NCBI GenBank assembly: GCA_036504215.1
Contig: DASXVO010000049.1
Coordinates: forward strand, 1-64,000
Length of the DNA: 64,000 nucleotides
Direction of reading: 5' to 3'
From: Vicinamibacterales bacterium
Lineage (GTDB): Bacteria > Acidobacteriota > Vicinamibacteria > Vicinamibacterales > Fen-181
How positions within the stretch are numbered: position 1 is the first letter of the stretch; every line of letters starts with the position of its first letter. Below, piece by piece: positions 54,837 to 64,000 of the stretch. The notes beneath the pieces were generated by a model. It was not told the DNA's origin. It ran no database searches and saw only the letters and a program-made list of their open reading frames with translations. The translations under genes were made by a program, and so were the position numbers.

Positions 54837-55067
54837 ATGTTGGCGAGACGGACCCTCCTGGCCTTGGCACTCATCCTGGTCTCTTCGGCGGCCGCGCTGG
54901 CGCAGCCGTCACTCGCCGTCAACGATGTCCTCCCGCCGGCGATTGTGACAGCGACTGCTGGCGGGTCCGTCTCCGTCCTTGTGTCGGGCGGGCCTGGCAG
55001 TCGGACGGACTGGATCGCCCTCTATCCCCTGGGCGCGTCCGACCGCGCTTTCCTCTCGTGGCAGTAA
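54837..55067 (+). pseudogene. 5' part of the giant mosaic protein gene, ends at an in-frame TAA
   Basis: 76 codons before the stop. Signal peptide MLARRTLLALALILVSSAAA then LAQPS, with GAGGAAGG upstream. The mature part starts the first of four 107-residue Ig-like repeats (GGPGSRTDWIALYPLGASDR, then FLSWQ). The TAA at 55065 falls exactly where the other three repeats have TAC (WQYLSG or WRYLSG) at 55386, 55707 and 56028. The frame stays open after the stop for another 8.9 kb. On its own this piece would give a 76-residue peptide without function. It is best read as the broken start of the next entry, unless readthrough or a base-call error applies. Confidence 0.75.
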
Positions 55068-56192
55068 TTGAGCGGCACGACGTCGCCGCCCGACACCGGC
55101 TTGCCGACAGCGGTGCTGACGTTTTCGGTGCCTGTCTCCGCCGGAGACTATGAGTTCCGCCTCTTTGCGAACAACGGATACTCACGCCTCACCACGAGCA
55201 CGGTCGTGAGGGTCGCAGCGTCTCAGGCGCGAGTGGCCGTCAACGGAACGGCGCCCGGAACGCCCGTGACTGCTCCGGCGGGCGCAGAAGCGATCGTTGC
55301 TGTCGCCGGCGGTCCGGCGAACTCCACAGACTGGGTGGCCCTGTACGCCAGTGGAGGTCCGGACGCCGCACCGCTCTGGTGGCAGTACTTGAGCGGCTCT
55401 ACGGCGCCACCCGCAAGCGGAGTGTCGGAGGCCTCTCTGAGCTTCGCTCTGCCGGTCGTTGCGGGAGACTACGAGTTCCGATTCTTCGCCCACAACACGT
55501 ACGCGCGCCTGGCCACGAGCACCACGGTCACGGTTACCGCGTCGCAGGCGCAGCTCGCTGTCAACGGGGCGCCTTCGGGAACGCCGGTGACCGTGGCCGC
55601 CGGTGCGGGCACCAGCGTGGTGATCTCCGGCGGGCCCGGCAACGCTACCGACTGGGTCGGCCTCTACGCCGTCGGAGCGCCAGACACCTCGCTCCTCGCG
55701 TGGCGCTACTTGAGCGGAACGACCGCGCCGCCAGGCACTGGTCTCACCGAAGTCACTCTGCTCTTCGCCATGCCGACGGTCCCCGGCACCTACGAGTTCC
55801 GGTTCTTCGCGAGCAACGGGTACAGCCGGCTGGCGACGAGCGCCGCTATCACCATCCCGCCCTCGCCCGCACGGATCGCCGTCAATGGCGTGATAGCGCC
55901 CGCCACCGTGACCGCGGAGCCGGGCCAGGCAGTTGCCGTTCACCTCACCAACGCGCCCGGGAACGCAACCGACTGGGTTGCCCTGGCCCCCGTCGGCACG
56001 CCTGACACCGCGTACGTGGCGTGGCAGTACCTCTCCGGCTCGAGCACGCCACCCTCGGTGGGCATGAGTGAGGCCACCCTGACCTTCGCGATGTCCTCGA
56101 CGATTGGCGCGTACGAGTTCCGGCTCTTCGCCAGCAACGGGTTCGCCCTGGTGACGAAGAGCGGAACCGTCGCCGTGCAGGCCGGACCGCAA
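54918..56192 (+). repeat. four 321-bp tandem coding repeats
   Basis: Repeats begin at 54918, 55239, 55560 and 55881 (each at GTC-AA of VN), so the period is exactly 321 bp (107 codons) although the sequences have diverged. Each has the order VNG...GGPGNxTDWVxLY, WQYLSG, YEFRxFAxNGY. The fold is likely Ig-like; TDW-x-LY and YEFR resemble SKICH-type domains, by eye only. Confidence 0.93.
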
Positions 56193-59100
56193 GGCTGTGC
56201 CTACGCGCTGTCGCGGTCCACGCTGGCGACGTCATGGGCAGCCCGCTCTGACGGATTCAGCCTGACCACCGATGCCGCGTGCGCGTGGACCGTCAGCCAT
56301 CCCTGGATCGACGTCACGAGGGCGTCCGGCCAGGGCAACGCCGCGATCGGGTTCGTCGTCGAAGCGAACACGACGGGCGTGCCGCGGCTGGGGACGATTG
56401 AGGCCGGCGGGCGCACGTTCACCATCAGCCAGGCAGCAGGGCCCTGCGCGCTCTCTCTGGCTCCGGCTTCTGCCGACTTGGCACAGACCGGAGGCGCGGG
56501 TAGCTTCATCGCGAGCGCGTTGTGGGGATGCCAGCGACCGGCGGTCTCGAACGCATCGTGGATGAGCGCCGGACGCCTGGGATACGCGAGCGTCGTCCTT
56601 TCGGACGCCCCGAAGGCCTATTGGCGGCTCTCCGACGTGGGGACCACGACGGCCGCCGACACCAGCGGGAACGGGATCGACGCGCAGCTCGCGGGCACCT
56701 ATGTACAGGGCGTCGCGGCGTCGTTCGCAGATGGGGACGCCGCCACCTTCTTCTCCACGGACGGGTACGCCTACGTCGGTTACCGCACCGAGCTCGACCC
56801 TTCATCTGGCTCCTTCAGCCTCGAGGCCAGGGTGCGATTCACCGAACCGACCACGGGCACTATCGCGGGTGCGGTGTCCGACGTGTACGGCTACCAGCTG
56901 CAACTCGTCGGCAATCGCGCGCAGTTCCGGGCGGACTACTTCGACCCCGTCTTCAGTCTCGACAGCAGCGCCGAGCTGAACGACGGGACCTGGCACCACC
57001 TCGTCGGCGTTGCCGACGCCACGGCAGGCGAGGCGCGACTGTATGTCGACGGCCAGCTCGATGGAACGTCGCCCGCGACCGGTCCGGTCATCTTCGGCGG
57101 GGACTTCATCATCGGCGCCCGCAGCTACGCCAGCGAGGGGTTCATCACGGCCTCGATCGACGAAGTCGCGTATTACCCCCGGGCACTGACGCTCGAGCAA
57201 GTGTCGCGACACTTCAAGAGCCAGCACATGCCGCTGGCGAGCGACGGTCCGATCGAGGACGTCGTCGACTACGCGGCACAGGCCAACCCGACGGGCCTCA
57301 CGCGCAACGGCGCGCTCTCGCTGGGCGACACGACCTTCACGATCACGCAGGCCGCCTTGCCCTGCAGCCTGACCGTCGCGCAGGCCGCCGCAACGGCGCC
57401 CGAACAAGGTGCGACCGGAACGCTGGAACTGACGGGCGTTCCCGGGTGCGGTTGGTCGGCCTCCACCGACACACCGTGGATCACGATCGGTCGCCAGCTG
57501 GACGGCTATCGAGGTCAGGTCCTTGCCGACGGCCCCTCGGCCTACTGGCGTCTGGACGACGAGGGTACGACAACGGCCGTGGATGCGAGTGGCAACGGTT
57601 TCGACGCCACCTACGAGGGCGGCTACCAGCAGGGCGTACCCGGCGCCACCGCCGACGGCGATCCCGCGACGCGATTCCCCTCCGGCGGATACGGACAAGT
57701 CCGGTTCTACCGTGACGGCACGACGGTCGCGCCGAGCGGGCCGCTGACATTCGAAGCGTGGGTTCAGTATCGCGGGCAGGGCGGCGGCACGGTCGTCAGC
57801 ACCTGGAACTACAGTCTCGCCCTCGGACCGTCAGGGGCGAGCTTCTCGGCTACCTACGGGGAAGGACAGAAGGCGTTCGACCTCCAGGGCAGCCGGCCGA
57901 TCAACGACGGCGCATGGCACCACCTCGTCGGCACCGTGGATACCGCGGCGCAGACGGCAGCGCTCTACATCGACGGCATTCTCGAGGCCTCGGCGCCGAC
58001 CACCGGTTACCTGTACCGTGTTGAAGGCGTTTTCATTGGTCCCGCCGTCGCAGCGATCGACGAGGTGGCGGTCTATCCGGTCGTCCTGACACCGGAGCAG
58101 GTAGGCCACCACTACGACGCGCGCGTCTCGCCCGGCGGCGGCACCGGAATGCTCGAGTACATTGTCGCGCCCAACCAGACCATCGAAGCGCGCTCCGGCG
58201 TTCTGCACGTCGCCGGCGTGGCCGTTCCCGTGACACAGGCCGCCCGCCACTGCATCGACGTGACGCCGGCGGCGATTGACGTCGAGGCGTCGGGCGGCGC
58301 CGGCGCGATTGCCGTGAGCGCGATTTCAGGCGGATGCACGTGGCAGGCTGGCGCAGACGTGCGGTGGTTGAGCGTCGAGCCGACCGCCGGTACCGGGCCT
58401 GGCTCCGTTCAGTACACGGTTGCTGACAACGAGTCGGTCCTCAGGCGCATCGGCCACATCACCGTCAACGGGCAGGTCGTCACCGTGACGCAGGGGCCGG
58501 CCCCGCTGCGCCCACCGGCGCAGGGTTACTCCATTGCCGCCGGCGTCAGCCACACCCTGGCGGTCAAGAGCGACGGTACGGTCTGGAGCTGGGGGGCGAA
58601 CGACTACGGCCAACTTGGCGACGGAACCGGCAGCGAACGGTTCACGCCCGGACAGGTGCCGTCACTCTCGCCGGTCGTCGCCGTGGCCGCCGGCTACCAT
58701 TCGATGGCGCTGATGAGCGACGGCACCGTGTGGACGTGGGGCAGCAATCGCTATGGCCAGCTCGGTGCCGGCGCGATGGCGTACAGTCTCCAGCCCGTCC
58801 TCGTGACCGGATTGAGCGACGTGGTGACGATTGCCGCCGGGCGCTACCACAGCGTGGCGCTCAAGGCCGATGGTACGGTCTGGACGTGGGGCTGGAACCG
58901 CTACGGCCAGCTCGGCGACGGTACGACAACCAATCAGGGGGCGCCGATCATGGTACCGGGGCTCGCGCTGCCCGCCGTCGCGATCGCCGCGACGGGCGAC
59001 CGTACGATGCTGCTCGAGGCCGACGGCTCGGTGTGGGGCTTCGGGTACAACGGCAACGGCGAACTCGGCGACGGGAGTCCCTGGCAGGCCGTCACGTGGC

Positions 59101-62100
59101 TGGCGCAGGCCGCCGGGCTGCCGCCGACCGTCGCGGGTATCGGAGCGGGCGGCGTCCACGCGTATGCCATCACCTCGCACGGACAACTCTGGGCGTGGGG
59201 CGCCAATGGCAGCGGCCAACTCGGAGACGGAACGAAGATCGACCGCCTGCAACCGGTGGAGGTGTCTGCCGTCGGACCGGTGAGGCAGGTCGTGGGTGGC
59301 GCTGCACACACCATCGCACTGCGCACGGACGGATCGGTGTGGACGTGGGGTTCGAACGACTCCGGACAACTCGGCAACGGCACGCCGGCATGCCCCTCGG
59401 GCGACTTCACCACTTGTTCGGCGCGGCAGGCCGTGCCAACGCCAGCGGCGGTTGCCGGCCCTGCCGACATCGTCGCCGTGGCCGCCAACGGCCGGGCGAC
59501 GTTCGCCGTCGCTTCCGACGGCCGCGTCTGGTCGTGGGGCCTCAACGACGCGCGCCGGCTCGGTGACGGCACCACCGAGGCCCGCCCGTCGCCAATTCAG
59601 ATCGCAGAGCCCGGATTCGCGTGGCGGACCGGCACGCCGATCCTCGAGGCCTCCGGCACGTACTTCGATCCGTTCCAGGTCCACGGGGGACCGACGACGT
59701 CCGGCGCGGTCCTGCGCTACACGACGAACGGCAACGATCCCACCGAGACGGATCCGATCTTCCCGGTCGAGGGCATCTTCATCGCCGAGACGACGACAGT
59801 GAAGCTGAGGGCGTGGGCGGACGGGCGGCCGCCGAGCAACGTGGCGTCCGCTACGTTCGTCTTGAAGGTCCGGACACCCGTGTTCGAACCCGCCGCCAGT
59901 CTGTCCACCACGCCTCAGACCGTGACGATCGCGTCACCGACTGCCGGGGCGTCCCTGTTCTACACGACCGACGGCAGCACGCCACAGCCCGGCGAGTCGT
60001 CGACGACGGCCTATGCGGGCGGCATTGGCATTAGCACGAAGACGCAACTGATCGCGATTGGTCGCAAGGCAGGCTGGGCGGACAGCGACGCGGCGATTGC
60101 CGACTACCAGTTCAACTACGGGAGGCTGGCAGCACCGACCATTACGCCGCCGTCGGGCACCTACGTCTACGGCGATTCGGTCGTGATCTCCGCGGATCCG
60201 ATCGCCACCATCCGCTACACGACCGACAGCTCGCAGCCGACGTCCGCTTCGCTGGTGTACGGCGCGCCGATCGTGCTGACCGGACCGGTCACCCTGACTG
60301 CGATCGCGCTCCATCCCGACTGGAGCGACAGCCCGGCGGCCGTCGCGACGTTCGCCGCGAAGGTCGCCGCTCCGGTGTTCTCGCCGGGCGCCGGCAGCTA
60401 CCCCGAAGGCTCGCGCATCAGCGTCGTGAGCACGACACCCGGAGCCATCATCCACTACAGCACCAACGGCCAGGAACCAGGTGTGAACGACCCGGTCGTC
60501 GCCAACGGCGGCTCGCTGGCCGTCGGCAACTACGCGCTGAAGGCGAGGGCGTTCCGCGCGGGGCTCCTGGCGAGCGACGTGACGACGGCCGGCTACTCGC
60601 GGGACGGCGACGCGTGCCGCCTGTCCGTGTCTCCGCCGGTCGTGACCGTCGGCGCCGAGCCGGCGGGCGGCCTGTTCACCGTGACTGCAACCGGCAGTAG
60701 CTGTTCGTGGACCGCCACGACCGACGCGTCGTGGATAGCACTCGACGGGGTGAACGGATCTGGGCCGAGCGGCCAGTTGGCCTACCACGTCGCAGCCAAT
60801 TCAGGCCCGGCGCTGCGCGTCGGGTTCATTGCCGTCGGCGACATCGACGTGGTCGTGGTGCAACGCGGAACCGGTCTCTGCACGTCCAGCGTCTCGCCCG
60901 CGTCGATCGCGACAACGGCCGGCGCGACGACCGGAACGCTCGACGTCACGTTCGGTGACGCGGGCTGCACATGGAGCGCGTCGAGCGACGTTCCGTGGAT
61001 CGCCATCTCGACGCCGAACGCCGCGAGCGCGTACGCACAGGCGGTCGTGGCCGACCAGCCTGTCGGCTACTGGCCGCTTTCTGAGCCCGCCGGGGCCACG
61101 ACCGTCGCCGACGCATCGGGATACGGGCACGACGGGACGGTCACGTCGGGTGTCACGCTTGGCCAGCCGGGTGCACGCGGCGACGGCAGGACCTCGGCGG
61201 CATTCGACGGCGCCAGCGGCGCGGTGGTGATCCCGGCCGGCGCGGTACCGGAATTGGGTGCGTTCACCTGGGAAGCCTGGGTGAAAGTGCCAGGCGTCGC
61301 GGGCGCCCGCCGCGACATCGTCAGCTGGGGCGGCAGTGCCGGTGCCTTCAACCTGTGGATCGACGCCAACGCCAGCCAGGCGACGTTCGACCTGTTCCCG
61401 GCGGTCGGCAGCCGGCAGTCGGTTACGCTCGGGCCGACGGTGGTCGGTTCCGGATGGGTTCACCTCGTTTTCACAGCGGATGGCGCCGCGTGGCACGCCT
61501 ACATCAACGGCACGGCCGTGCCATCGGGCGCGATCGCCGGTGGACTGGCGTCGAGCGCGGATCTCCTCGTGCTCGGCCGTGACGGCGTCGCCGCGCAGGC
61601 ATGGTTCGACGGGTGGCTGGCCGACGTCGCCGTGTATCCGTACTCGCTCAACGCGGACCAGGTGTCCCGTCACTACGCGCTGCGCGAGGTGAGCGCAGCG
61701 GGCGCCGCGCCGCTCGCGTACGCCATCGAGGCCAACGACAGCGGTGCGGTGCGAACCGGCACGTTGACGGTGGCCGGCGTTCGGGTGCCCGTGAGCCAAG
61801 CGGCGGCCGTCGGTGTCTCAATTGTGGGGGGGGTGTCGCCGTCGCCCAATGCGGCCGGGTGGAACCACACGGCCGTCACGGTGTCCTTCACGTGCGCGGG
61901 AGCCGGCGCCGTCACGTGTCAGCCGCCGATGGAGGTGTCGCAGGACGGCGAGCAGGACGTCCAGGGCACCGCGTCGAACGATCTCGGCGCCACGGCGAAC
62001 GCCACCGTGCACGTGAAGATCGACCGGACGGCTCCAGTGGTCGTGATCACCTCACCGTCGCTCGGCGAACTCGTAGTCGCGGGGCCGGTCACGGTCCGAG

Positions 62101-64000
62101 GCTCGGTCATCGACGGGCTGTCTGGGCTGCTCGGCGTGTCGTGCAATGGCACGGCGGCGACGGTGGACGACACGGGGTTCACCTGCCAGGTCGTCGTTCC
62201 GGCCGGCACGACGACCGTCGAGGTCCTGGCGACCGATGTTGCGTCGAACGTGCGACGGGCGACCATCGACGTGGCGACGGTGGAGGAGGCGGTCACCACG
62301 CCGCCGCTGGGCCTGCGGGTGTCGCCGGCGAAGGCGAGCCTGGTGATGGGCGCGAGCCGCGGGTTTACGGTGAAGGACACGTTCGGGCGCGTGCTGCCCG
62401 GCATCACGTGGTCCGTGGACGCCGAGGGCGTCGCGTCACTCGAGCCGACGGGCGGGGAGGTGACGGTGACGGGCGTGACGGCGGGCGTGGTCCACGTGAC
62501 GGCCGCGTGGCAGGGCCTGACGGCCCAGGCCGAACTCACGGTGCTGGCCGTCGTCGGGACGACGTCCGAGGTGAGGACGCTGTGGTCGACGCCGCCGGTC
62601 GCCGGTTCGGTGCAGCGCATCGTGCAGGGCGCGACGCGGGCGGACGGCACGCACCGGATCTACACGTATGAGAGCCCGGGCGAGCCCCACAGCCACGACA
62701 TGATCCGGGCGTTCGAGCAGGACGGCCGCGAAGCATGGACGGCCGCGGCGGGGGGCGCGGTGCTGCAGGTGTCGGGCGACCCGTCGGGCGGCGTGGTGGC
62801 GCTCGTCCACGACTGGGAGGCGTTCACGAACCGCTTGCGGATCTTCGGCCCGCATGGCGGCGAGGTAAGCGGATCCGAGGGCGTCGGCCCGTTTGCCATT
62901 CACCCGAACGGTCCGCTCTACTACGTGAACCAGGCCAACACCCTTGTCGGCCTGGACATCGGCCTGGGCGGTGGGCCGGGCGCGACGCTGTCTGGGACGC
63001 CCGGCTACCCGACGGTGCTCCTGGACGGGTCGGTGGTGGTGCCGAGCGTCGTGGATCCGGAGCAACTCCAGTTGACGTTCGTGCGGAGCACGGGGGCGGT
63101 GGAGACGCAGGTGGTGACGGTTCCGAACGGCGGGCTGTGGTCTCCGTACCGGGCGATCCCGAACGGCCAAGGGGGCCTCCTGGTGCAACTGATCCGGCGG
63201 CTGGTGTGGCCGGGCGGCGACTACTGGCGGTGGGACGCGGTGGTGGTGGGGGTGGACGCGAGCGGAGCCCTCACCGGGAGCACGGGGCTCGGGGCCGACT
63301 GGGGTGAGATCGTCGTGGGCGAGAACGGGACCATCGTGGCGACGTCGCAAGTGGAGTACTCCACGGAGCCGTCGTGGGGCGGCGGGGCCAAGCGGCATGT
63401 GGGGATGCTCATGCCGCTGCAGGCGAACGGCAATCCTGGCGGGCTGGCGAGCTTCTACGGTCCGTCCGGGTCGTGCGGGTGGATCTGGGACAACATCGGC
63501 CAGCAGTGGTTCTACAACGGCGACTGCGGCCAGCCGGTCCTCAGCATCACCTCGGTCGCGGCCCGCGGCAGCGAGCTGATCGTGACGCTGAACGACGGCC
63601 AGGTGCTTGCGCCCGGTCCGCTCGGGCAGATGCGGCTCTCGAATCTGGTGCCCGCGACCGACGGCACGTATCTCGGCGGCGGCGCGGGCGGCGCGAGCGC
63701 CGGGGAACTGGTGAACGTCGCGGTGACGTCGGAGGAACCGGTGTCGCCGCTCGGGGCCGAGTGGCCGGAAGGAGCCGGTAGCCGTCAGAGCGCATACAGC
63801 GCGAGCCCGCTCTCAGCCCTTAGAGTCATTGCAGACGTGGGGGACAATGAGAGTCGAGCCTTGGCGTTCGCCGCCCTGAAAGACGCCTTGGTGCAAGACC
63901 CGGCCGGCAGCATCGCCGCGTCGAAGCTTTCGATGACAAAGGATGGCTACGTCCAGGTCAACACCACCATAGGAGACTTCAAACGCTCTGGCACCATTGC
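55068..64000 (+). CDS. giant secreted mosaic protein: Ig-like repeats, BACON with nested LamG, RCC1, chitobiase-C, Big2 (runs off right edge)
   Basis: Continuation of the frame that starts at 54837; no stop from 55068 to the window end, about 2,977 codons. Order: rest of the four 321-bp repeats; BACON (56196-56444); BACON 56445-57362 split by LamG 1 (56583-57218); BACON 57363-58250 split by LamG 2 (57507-58118); BACON 58251-58510; seven RCC1 repeats 58527-59610 (DGTVWTWGSNRYGQLGAG type); four chitobiase-C-like repeats 59634-60600 (IHYSTNGQEP type); BACON 60615-60876; BACON 60879-61805 split by LamG 3 (61032-61682); Ig-like domains 61806-62300; Big2 62313-62550; then a propeller-like region to the edge. 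BACON and LamG domains bind sugars, so an outer surface or secreted adhesin or polysaccharide-binding role is likely. No catalytic domain is visible. A TTG directly follows the TAA and could be a weak restart. Confidence 0.85.
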   Translation, partial: MSGTTSPPDTGLPTAVLTFSVPVSAGDYEFRLFANNGYSRLTTSTVVRVAASQARVAVNGTAPGTPVTAPAGAEAIVAVAGGPANSTDWVALYASGGPDAAPLWWQYLSGSTAPPASGVSEASLSFALPVVAGDYEFRFFAHNTYARLATSTTVTVTASQAQLAVNGAPSGTPVTVAAGAGTSVVISGGPGNATDWVGLYAVGAPDTSLLAWRYLSGTTAPPGTGLTEVTLLFAMPTVPGTYEFRFFASNGYSRLATSAAITIPPSPARIAVNGVIAPATVTAEPGQAVAVHLTNAPGNATDWVALAPVGTPDTAYVAWQYLSGSSTPPSVGMSEATLTFAMSSTIGAYEFRLFASNGFALVTKSGTVAVQAGPQGCAYALSRSTLATSWAARSDGFSLTTDAACAWTVSHPWIDVTRASGQGNAAIGFVVEANTTGVPRLGTIEAGGRTFTISQAAGPCALSLAPASADLAQTGGAGSFIASALWGCQRPAVSNASWMSAGRLGYASVVLSDAPKAYWRLSDVGTTTAADTSGNGIDAQLAGTYVQGVAASFADGDAATFFSTDGYAYVGYRTELDPSSGSFSLEARVRFTEPTTGTIAGAVSDVYGYQLQLVGNRAQFRADYFDPVFSLDSSAELNDGTWHHLVGVADATAGEARLYVDGQLDGTSPATGPVIFGGDFIIGARSYASEGFITASIDEVAYYPRALTLEQVSRHFKSQHMPLASDGPIEDVVDYAAQANPTGLTRNGALSLGDTTFTITQAALPCSLTVAQAAATAPEQGATGTLELTGVPGCGWSASTDTPWITIGRQLDGYRGQVLADGPSAYWRLDDEGTTTAVDASGNGFDATYEGGYQQGVPGATADGDPATRFPSGGYGQVRFYRDGTTVAPSGPLTFEAWVQYRGQGGGTVVSTWNYSLALGPSGASFSATYGEGQKAFDLQGSRPINDGAWHHLVGTVDTAAQTAALYIDGILEASAPTTGYLYRVEGVFIGPAVAAIDEVAVYPVVLTPEQVGHHYDARVSPGGGTGMLEYIVAPNQTIEARSGVLHVAGVAVPVTQAARHCIDVTPAAIDVEASGGAGAIAVSAISGGCTWQAGADVRWLSVEPTAGTGPGSVQYTVADNESVLRRIGHITVNGQVVTVTQGPAPLRPPAQGYSIAAGVSHTLAVKSDGTVWSWGANDYGQLGDGTGSERFTPGQVPSLSPVVAVAAGYHSMALMSDGTVWTWGSNRYGQLGAGAMAYSLQPVLVTGLSDVVTIAAGRYHSVALKADGTVWTWGWNRYGQLGDGTTTNQGAPIMVPGLALPAVAIAATGDRTMLLEADGSVWGFGYNGNGELGDGSPWQAVTWLAQAAGLPPTVAGIGAGGVHAYAITSHGQLWAWGANGSGQLGDGTKIDRLQPVEVSAVGPVRQVVGGAAHTIALRTDGSVWTWGSNDSGQLGNGTPACPSGDFTTCSARQAVPTPAAVAGPADIVAVAANGRATFAVASDGRVWSWGLNDARRLGDGTTEARPSPIQIAEPGFAWRTGTPILEASGTYFDPFQVHGGPTTSGAVLRYTTNGNDPTETDPIFPVEGIFIAETTTVKLRAWADGRPPSNVASATFVLKVRTPVFEPAASLSTTPQTVTIASPTAGASLFYTTDGSTPQPGESSTTAYAGGIGISTKTQLIAIGRKAGWADSDAAIADYQFNYGRLAAPTITPPSGTYVYGDSVVISADPIATIRYTTDSSQPTSASLVYGAPIVLTGPVTLTAIALHPDWSDSPAAVATFAAKVAAPVFSPGAGSYPEGSRISVVSTTPGAIIHYSTNGQEPGVNDPVVANGGSLAVGNYALKARAFRAGLLASDVTTAGYSRDGDACRLSVSPPVVTVGAEPAGGLFTVTATGSSCSWTATTDASWIALDGVNGSGPSGQLAYHVAANSGPALRVGFIAVGDIDVVVVQRGTGLCTSSVSPASIATTAGATTGTLDVTFGDAGCTWSASSDVPWIAISTPNAASAYAQAVVADQPVGYWPLSEPAGATTVADASGYGHDGTVTSGVTLGQPGARGDGRTSAAFDGASGAVVIPAGAVPELGAFTWEAWVKVPGVAGARRDIVSWGGSAGAFNLWIDANASQATFDLFPAVGSRQSVTLGPTVVGSGWVHLVFTADGAAWHAYINGTAVPSGAIAGGLASSADLLVLGRDGVAAQAWFDGWLADVAVYPYSLNADQVSRHYALREVSAAGAAPLAYAIEANDSGAVRTGTLTVAGVRVPVSQAAAVGVSIVGGVSPSPNAAGWNHTAVTVSFTCAGAGAVTCQPPMEVSQDGEQDVQGTASNDLGATANATVHVKIDRTAPVVVITSPSLGELVVAGPVTVRGSVIDGLSGLLGVSCNGTAATVDDTGFTCQVVVPAGTTTVEVLATDVASNVRRATIDVATVEEAVTTPPLGLRVSPAKASLVMGASRGFTVKDTFGRVLPGITWSVDAEGVASLEPTGGEVTVTGVTAGVVHVTAAWQGLTAQAELTVLAVVGTTSEVRTLWSTPPVAGSVQRIVQGATRADGTHRIYTYESPGEPHSHDMIRAFEQDGREAWTAAAGGAVLQVSGDPSGGVVALVHDWEAFTNRLRIFGPHGGEVSGSEGVGPFAIHPNGPLYYVNQANTLVGLDIGLGGGPGATLSGTPGYPTVLLDGSVVVPSVVDPEQLQLTFVRSTGAVETQVVTVPNGGLWSPYRAIPNGQGGLLVQLIRRLVWPGGDYWRWDAVVVGVDASGALTGSTGLGADWGEIVVGENGTIVATSQVEYSTEPSWGGGAKRHVGMLMPLQANGNPGGLASFYGPSGSCGWIWDNIGQQWFYNGDCGQPVLSITSVAARGSELIVTLNDGQVLAPGPLGQMRLSNLVPATDGTYLGGGAGGASAGELVNVAVTSEEPVSPLGAEWPEGAGSRQSAYSASPLSALRVIADVGDNESRALAFAALKDALVQDPAGSIAASKLSMTKDGYVQVNTTIGDFKRSGTI

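Follow-up and report, generated by a model that had tools for sequence, protein, structure and literature searches.

RTX adhesins such as FrhA, AhLap and MpIBP contain an Ig-like sandwich that is interrupted by a guest domain (PMC12077191, PMC10865825). The chain enters and exits the guest at a single site. The split Ig-like host holds the ligand-binding domain by both of its ends and lets it jut out from the side of an extended surface protein of many domains. In these adhesins the guest, near the C-terminus, is a carbohydrate-binding module (CBM), PA14, RTX roll or vWFA domain, and a type I secretion signal is present. BACON domains have been described differently, as linear and mostly N-terminal modules with LamG3 as a rare C-terminal partner; a spacer role has been proposed for BACON, and sugar binding has been described for members of LamG3. 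The available text of PMC11216935, the source for these points, contains no mention of LamG3 nested in BACON.

The window, by which is meant the whole stretch of 64,000 nucleotides analyzed here, encodes most of a giant protein with six BACON domains, three contiguous and three whose chain is discontinuous because each contains a complete LamG domain. It is likely that the BACON sandwich serves as the host of a loop-borne LamG that is projected sideways for multivalent binding, and that this unit has spread by duplication.

Layout of the giant protein

The main open frame starts at 55068, passes the window end at 64000 and terminates at contig position 64536. The listed ORF begins only at 55068 because of an in-frame TAA at 55065-55067. 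This codon separates the rest of the frame from an ATG at 54837, where the in-frame segment 54837-55064 encodes a signal-peptide-like start and the initial part of the first W-x-Y-L-S-G repeat. The TAA may reflect a damaged gene copy or an assembly error. The protein is probably secreted, to judge from the signal-like N-terminus upstream of that codon.

The first part of the protein consists of about five repeats of roughly 100 residues, an intact BACON, two nested units, a second intact BACON and an RCC1 propeller. Four CHB_HEX_C-type repeats, the third intact BACON, the third nested unit, a glucodextranase-B-like domain and further sequence follow (Table 1). A Pfam scan matched no family in the last 512 residues and no RTX family anywhere in the protein.

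Beyond the window, at the contig end, positions 66204-66490 (L039:705-991) hold 287 bp that are 99.3% identical to 61415-61701, a part of the third nested LamG, here joined to unrelated upstream sequence. Either part of the third nested LamG was copied here recently, or the assembly broke off at a repeat.

Table 1. Features of the giant gene in window coordinates
Feature	Position	Strand	Evidence
Giant gene	54837..64000, ends at contig 64536 outside window	+	Signal-peptide-like start 54837; TAA 55065-55067
About five tandem ~100-aa repeats, W-x-Y-L-S-G type	54900..56190	+	Sequence repeats; self-match 67%
Uninterrupted BACON	56196..56444	+	Alignment; seed of in-house intact-BACON profile
Unit 1 BACON front half	56445..56582	+	HMM model 1-42
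Unit 1 inserted LamG	56583..57218	+	LamG HMM 196 bits, residues 47-258
Unit 1 linker and BACON back half	57219..57362	+	HMM model 53-84
Unit 2 BACON front half	57363..57506	+	HMM model 1-47; AlphaFold2
Unit 2 inserted LamG	57507..58118	+	LamG HMM 199 bits, residues 49-252; AlphaFold2, fold matches
Unit 2 linker and BACON back half	58119..58250	+	HMM model 46-84; AlphaFold2
Uninterrupted BACON	58251..58508	+	Pfam PF13004/PF19190
RCC1-type propeller repeats	58530..59700 (approximate)	+	Pfam RCC1 / WD40_RLD
Four CHB_HEX_C / Fn3_assoc repeats	59700..60600 (approximate)	+	Pfam PF13290, PF13287
Uninterrupted BACON	60615..60872	+	Alignment with other BACONs
Unit 3 BACON front half	60879..61031	+	HMM model 1-50
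Unit 3 inserted LamG	61032..61679	+	LamG HMM 211 bits, residues 52-267; Pfam Laminin_G_3
Unit 3 linker and BACON back half	61680..61805	+	HMM model 46-84
Glucodextranase domain B-like, Ig-type	62034..62276	+	PF09136 26.7 bits, below 27-bit cut-off

Split BACON domains and the model of unit 2

An in-house BACON HMM used intact domains only, 71 in all: loci free of nested units supplied 65, and the remaining six came from proteins that have such units. In every complete nested unit, those of relatives included, this profile gives two complementary half-matches with the LamG between them. The front match ends at model positions 40-52 (27 in the unit SJa1, which also has the weakest half-matches, 11.1 and 11.5 bits) and the back match starts at 43-55; a unit truncated by a contig end shows the front half alone. 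With the LamG excised, all 12 complete units match the profile over 1-84, at 34-88 bits. The three window units do so at 42, 71 and 73 bits, and their spliced BACONs align over the full length with the three intact BACONs of the same protein.

Pfam is less sensitive to the split domains. Single halves reach at most 16.6 bits, and the spliced domains score 27.9, 19.3 and 23.9 bits with PF13004 and 23.2, none and 27.7 with BACON_2. Only unit 2, at 27.9 bits, passes the PF13004 cut-off of 25 when spliced and unit 3 passes BACON_2 at 27.7; spliced unit 1, which the in-house profile matches over 1-84, passes neither Pfam family. The LamG is more readily recognized: PF13385 (Laminin_G_3) covers three stretches of the giant protein, the best of them over 1-151 of 151 model positions. 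Clean limits for the insert come from LamG-only relatives in other bacteria, which cover residues 49-251 of unit 2 in the alignment. The half-matches, the spliced matches and these limits together make each unit one BACON with one whole LamG, always in the same loop.

The original prediction had placed three LamG-split BACONs in one frame at 56445-57362, 57363-58250 and 60879-61805, with the BACON ending resuming after each LamG and three further BACONs uninterrupted, and all of this is borne out, the resumed ending by a back-half HMM match in each window unit. It had also bounded the LamG by YWRL and VSRHY. The domain is indeed complete, but these are not its exact ends: it begins some 12 residues ahead of YW[RP]L, the motif is YWPL in unit 3, and unit 2 ends in VGHHY rather than VSRHY. 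Similarly, the LamG does occupy the loop after the W-I/W-M strand, but it does not follow the strand directly, as short linkers of a few residues lie on either side of each LamG.

Unit 2 (57363-58250) was modeled with AlphaFold2 from an alignment in which six nested units were combined with sixteen LamG-only sequences (22 rows). The alignment contained no intact BACON, so no such row could impose the pairing of the BACON halves. Mean pLDDT is 90.5 and pTM 0.77. Ten-residue blocks average 77-97 in both BACON halves, apart from one block of 70 in the linker after the LamG. Modeled strands at 3-5, 10-12, 17-25, 33-35 and 40-45 precede the LamG and those at 261-268, 277-283 and 286-292 follow it, with short helices at 49-55 and 244-255 bracketing the domain. 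Residues 50-258 form a ConA-like jelly-roll in the model and match ConA-like domains in the PDB and BFVD with Z of 20-21, including domain 4 of the arabinanase AbnA; these matches fall on the LamG part and leave the BACON part uncovered. Clostridial toxin binding domains also ranked high in the fold search, and were set aside since they share only the ConA-like jelly-roll and say nothing about function.

The structure prediction that had been proposed as a check thus shows, for unit 2, both BACON halves and the LamG well folded. Model confidence and completeness suggest that the halves pack against each other, and the complementary halves, the splicing and the model support the claim that the LamG is nested within one BACON. 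A larger model of a nested-nested-intact array (688 aa, two-row alignment) had a pLDDT of 33 and was uninformative.

Relatives and the origin of the insertions

Profile searches started with 100 relatives and were widened to the order (162 genomes), the class (193) and the phylum (396); in each genome, scoring was restricted to a limited set of candidates. Among those candidates, whole units were found in four genomes, all of one order. They carry 13 nested units, 12 of them complete: three in the window genome, seven in two genes of Acidobacteria bacterium SJ808 (G077, locus L099), two in G124 and one in G113. The same split had been predicted to be findable in other genomes, and these ten further units, in three genomes of the same order, bear this out. 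Identity between nested units is about 30-41%. The G124 relative (L095) is co-linear with the window protein, in the order nested, intact, RCC1, CHB_HEX, nested, Glucodextran_B.

Of the order's 162 genomes, 82 have intact BACONs and only four have nested units at the shared loop, again among the candidates scored. In 345 genomes sampled from the phylum to which a Cyclobacteriaceae MAG belongs, the scored candidates matched in the LamG part and never over a whole unit; matches in viral contigs and phages were likewise confined to the LamG part. In a set of 75 genome loci, L099 alone spanned the whole unit; nine others with wider or partial matches carry linear LamG, as do the later loci with readable flanks. 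Within the samples searched, the nested architecture is therefore rare and lineage-restricted. A literature search on BACON domains in Acidobacteria returned nothing.

Two candidates were rejected, a G086 match with an in-frame stop, which is a LamG gene adjoining a phage-like gene and not a nested unit, and a TafC match whose 34 bits fall below the cut-off of 410. A pair of genes in one genome (L036:2288-7948 and L037:1497-4853) shares the order nested-nested-intact-nested, which suggests gene duplication, and the former has one W-x-Y-type repeat after its BACONs, like the repeats of the window protein. HExxH motifs (HEFGH, HEALH) in the C-terminal regions of L005:9001-10536 and the ORF L096:3892-10989 hint at a metallopeptidase-like end domain.

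In G113, next to a unit of the usual type, another Laminin_G_3 appears to interrupt a BACON (L096:5860-6798) behind its first strand. The LamG match there is borderline (27.0 bits against a cut-off of 27.6). The BACON scores 71.7 bits when spliced, and its back part already reaches 66.9 by itself, which leaves the first strand a small contribution. To the original prediction the insertion had looked reusable, and 13 units in four genomes at one loop, with one apparent insertion at another, support that description.

It is possible, if doubtful, that LamG entered the same BACON loop on two or more independent occasions, the loop being an insertion hotspot; this concerns origin only and is compatible with the preferred reading of a loop-borne, projecting LamG. 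In two LamG trees, eleven nested LamGs group together (UFBoot/aLRT 94/94 and 93/91), and unit 3 and its partner in L095 fall outside them both times, as might be expected of separate insertions; the apparent other-loop insertion in L096 points the same way. Against this, the AU test does not reject one clade for the nested LamGs (p 0.21) or for their BACON hosts (p 0.35), the host tree being based on few columns. One insertion followed by duplication and two insertions are both compatible with the trees.

Proposed role and comparison with known systems

In the proposed arrangement, BACON would be the structural host, a split domain within an extracellular protein of the beads-on-a-string kind. 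A complete LamG jelly-roll would emerge from the loop between strand five of the model, which carries W-[ILM]-x, and strand six. Because both LamG ends are fixed at the same BACON loop, the LamG would project sideways, with its outer face free for a putative ligand, likely a polysaccharide or glycoconjugate. Several such LamGs on one protein could allow multivalent binding. Duplication would have spread the unit through proteins of the order, starting from a single insertion or a few at most.

It may instead be that the nesting is real and has drifted neutrally in a repeat-rich protein, with a tolerant loop, copied inserts and no projecting role. The rarity of nested units in an order where BACON itself is widespread (82 of 162 genomes, with nested units at the shared loop in four among the candidates scored) and the in-frame stop in the window copy are consistent with such drift. 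We consider it unlikely, as units are retained in relatives diverged to about 30-41% identity, L095 keeps the co-linear order, one genome holds seven copies and there appears to be a second insertion at another BACON loop. That the LamGs are ordinary beads flanked by degenerate BACON halves left by recombination is very improbable: both domains are common tandem beads in the phylum and some halves are weak (11.1 and 11.5 bits in SJa1), but the halves are complementary and jointly complete in every complete unit, both are confidently folded in the unit 2 model, and the split point is identical across four genomes.

The nested LamGs are best compared with the split domains of RTX adhesins, the closest analogue, from which it may be argued that they are probably side-projected binders on an extracellular repeat protein. 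Carbohydrate binding is their putative role. A sandwich host interrupted by a guest is found here at the sequence level and, with confidently modeled host halves, in the predicted structure of unit 2. The components differ, with BACON as host, LamG as guest and one to four nested units per protein. A broader generalization is more tentative: BACON may have come to host LamG recurrently, in at least two loops and on at least two occasions, as a non-RTX class of split-domain adhesin with side-projecting, multivalent glycan binders in a single order of Acidobacteria-type bacteria.

The other described relatives share components rather than layout. BACON and BACON_2 (PF13004, PF19190; BoGH5A, PDB 3zmr) share their motifs and complete strand set with the window BACONs, whose profile finds PDB 3zmr, 8va4 and 9s8x. 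AbnA domain 4 (PDB 5hon) has the same fold and is of the same Laminin_G_3/ConA-like kind as the insert, but is a linear module outside any BACON. According to PMC11216935, BT3986-type surface proteins of Bacteroidota, with DUF1735 and LamG3, also have an Ig-like spacer that carries a LamG3, which is proposed to retain sugars on the cell surface; unlike the present protein they are linear, with one C-terminal LamG, a different spacer family and a different phylum.

Standard annotation misses the split BACONs, as Pfam marks the LamG and the BACON halves stay below threshold. The rule that ligand-binding domains bud from companion split domains would here reach another host fold and another phylum. 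Extended beyond RTX adhesins in this way, it could make discontinuous BACONs a marker for candidate binding modules in poorly studied bacteria. A protein that holds both nested and intact BACONs, together with the one apparent insertion at a second loop, also forms a natural set for asking which loops of a beta-sandwich accept whole domains. The pairing of BACON host and LamG guest is new; the architectural kind, a split domain of the sort described in RTX adhesins, is already known.
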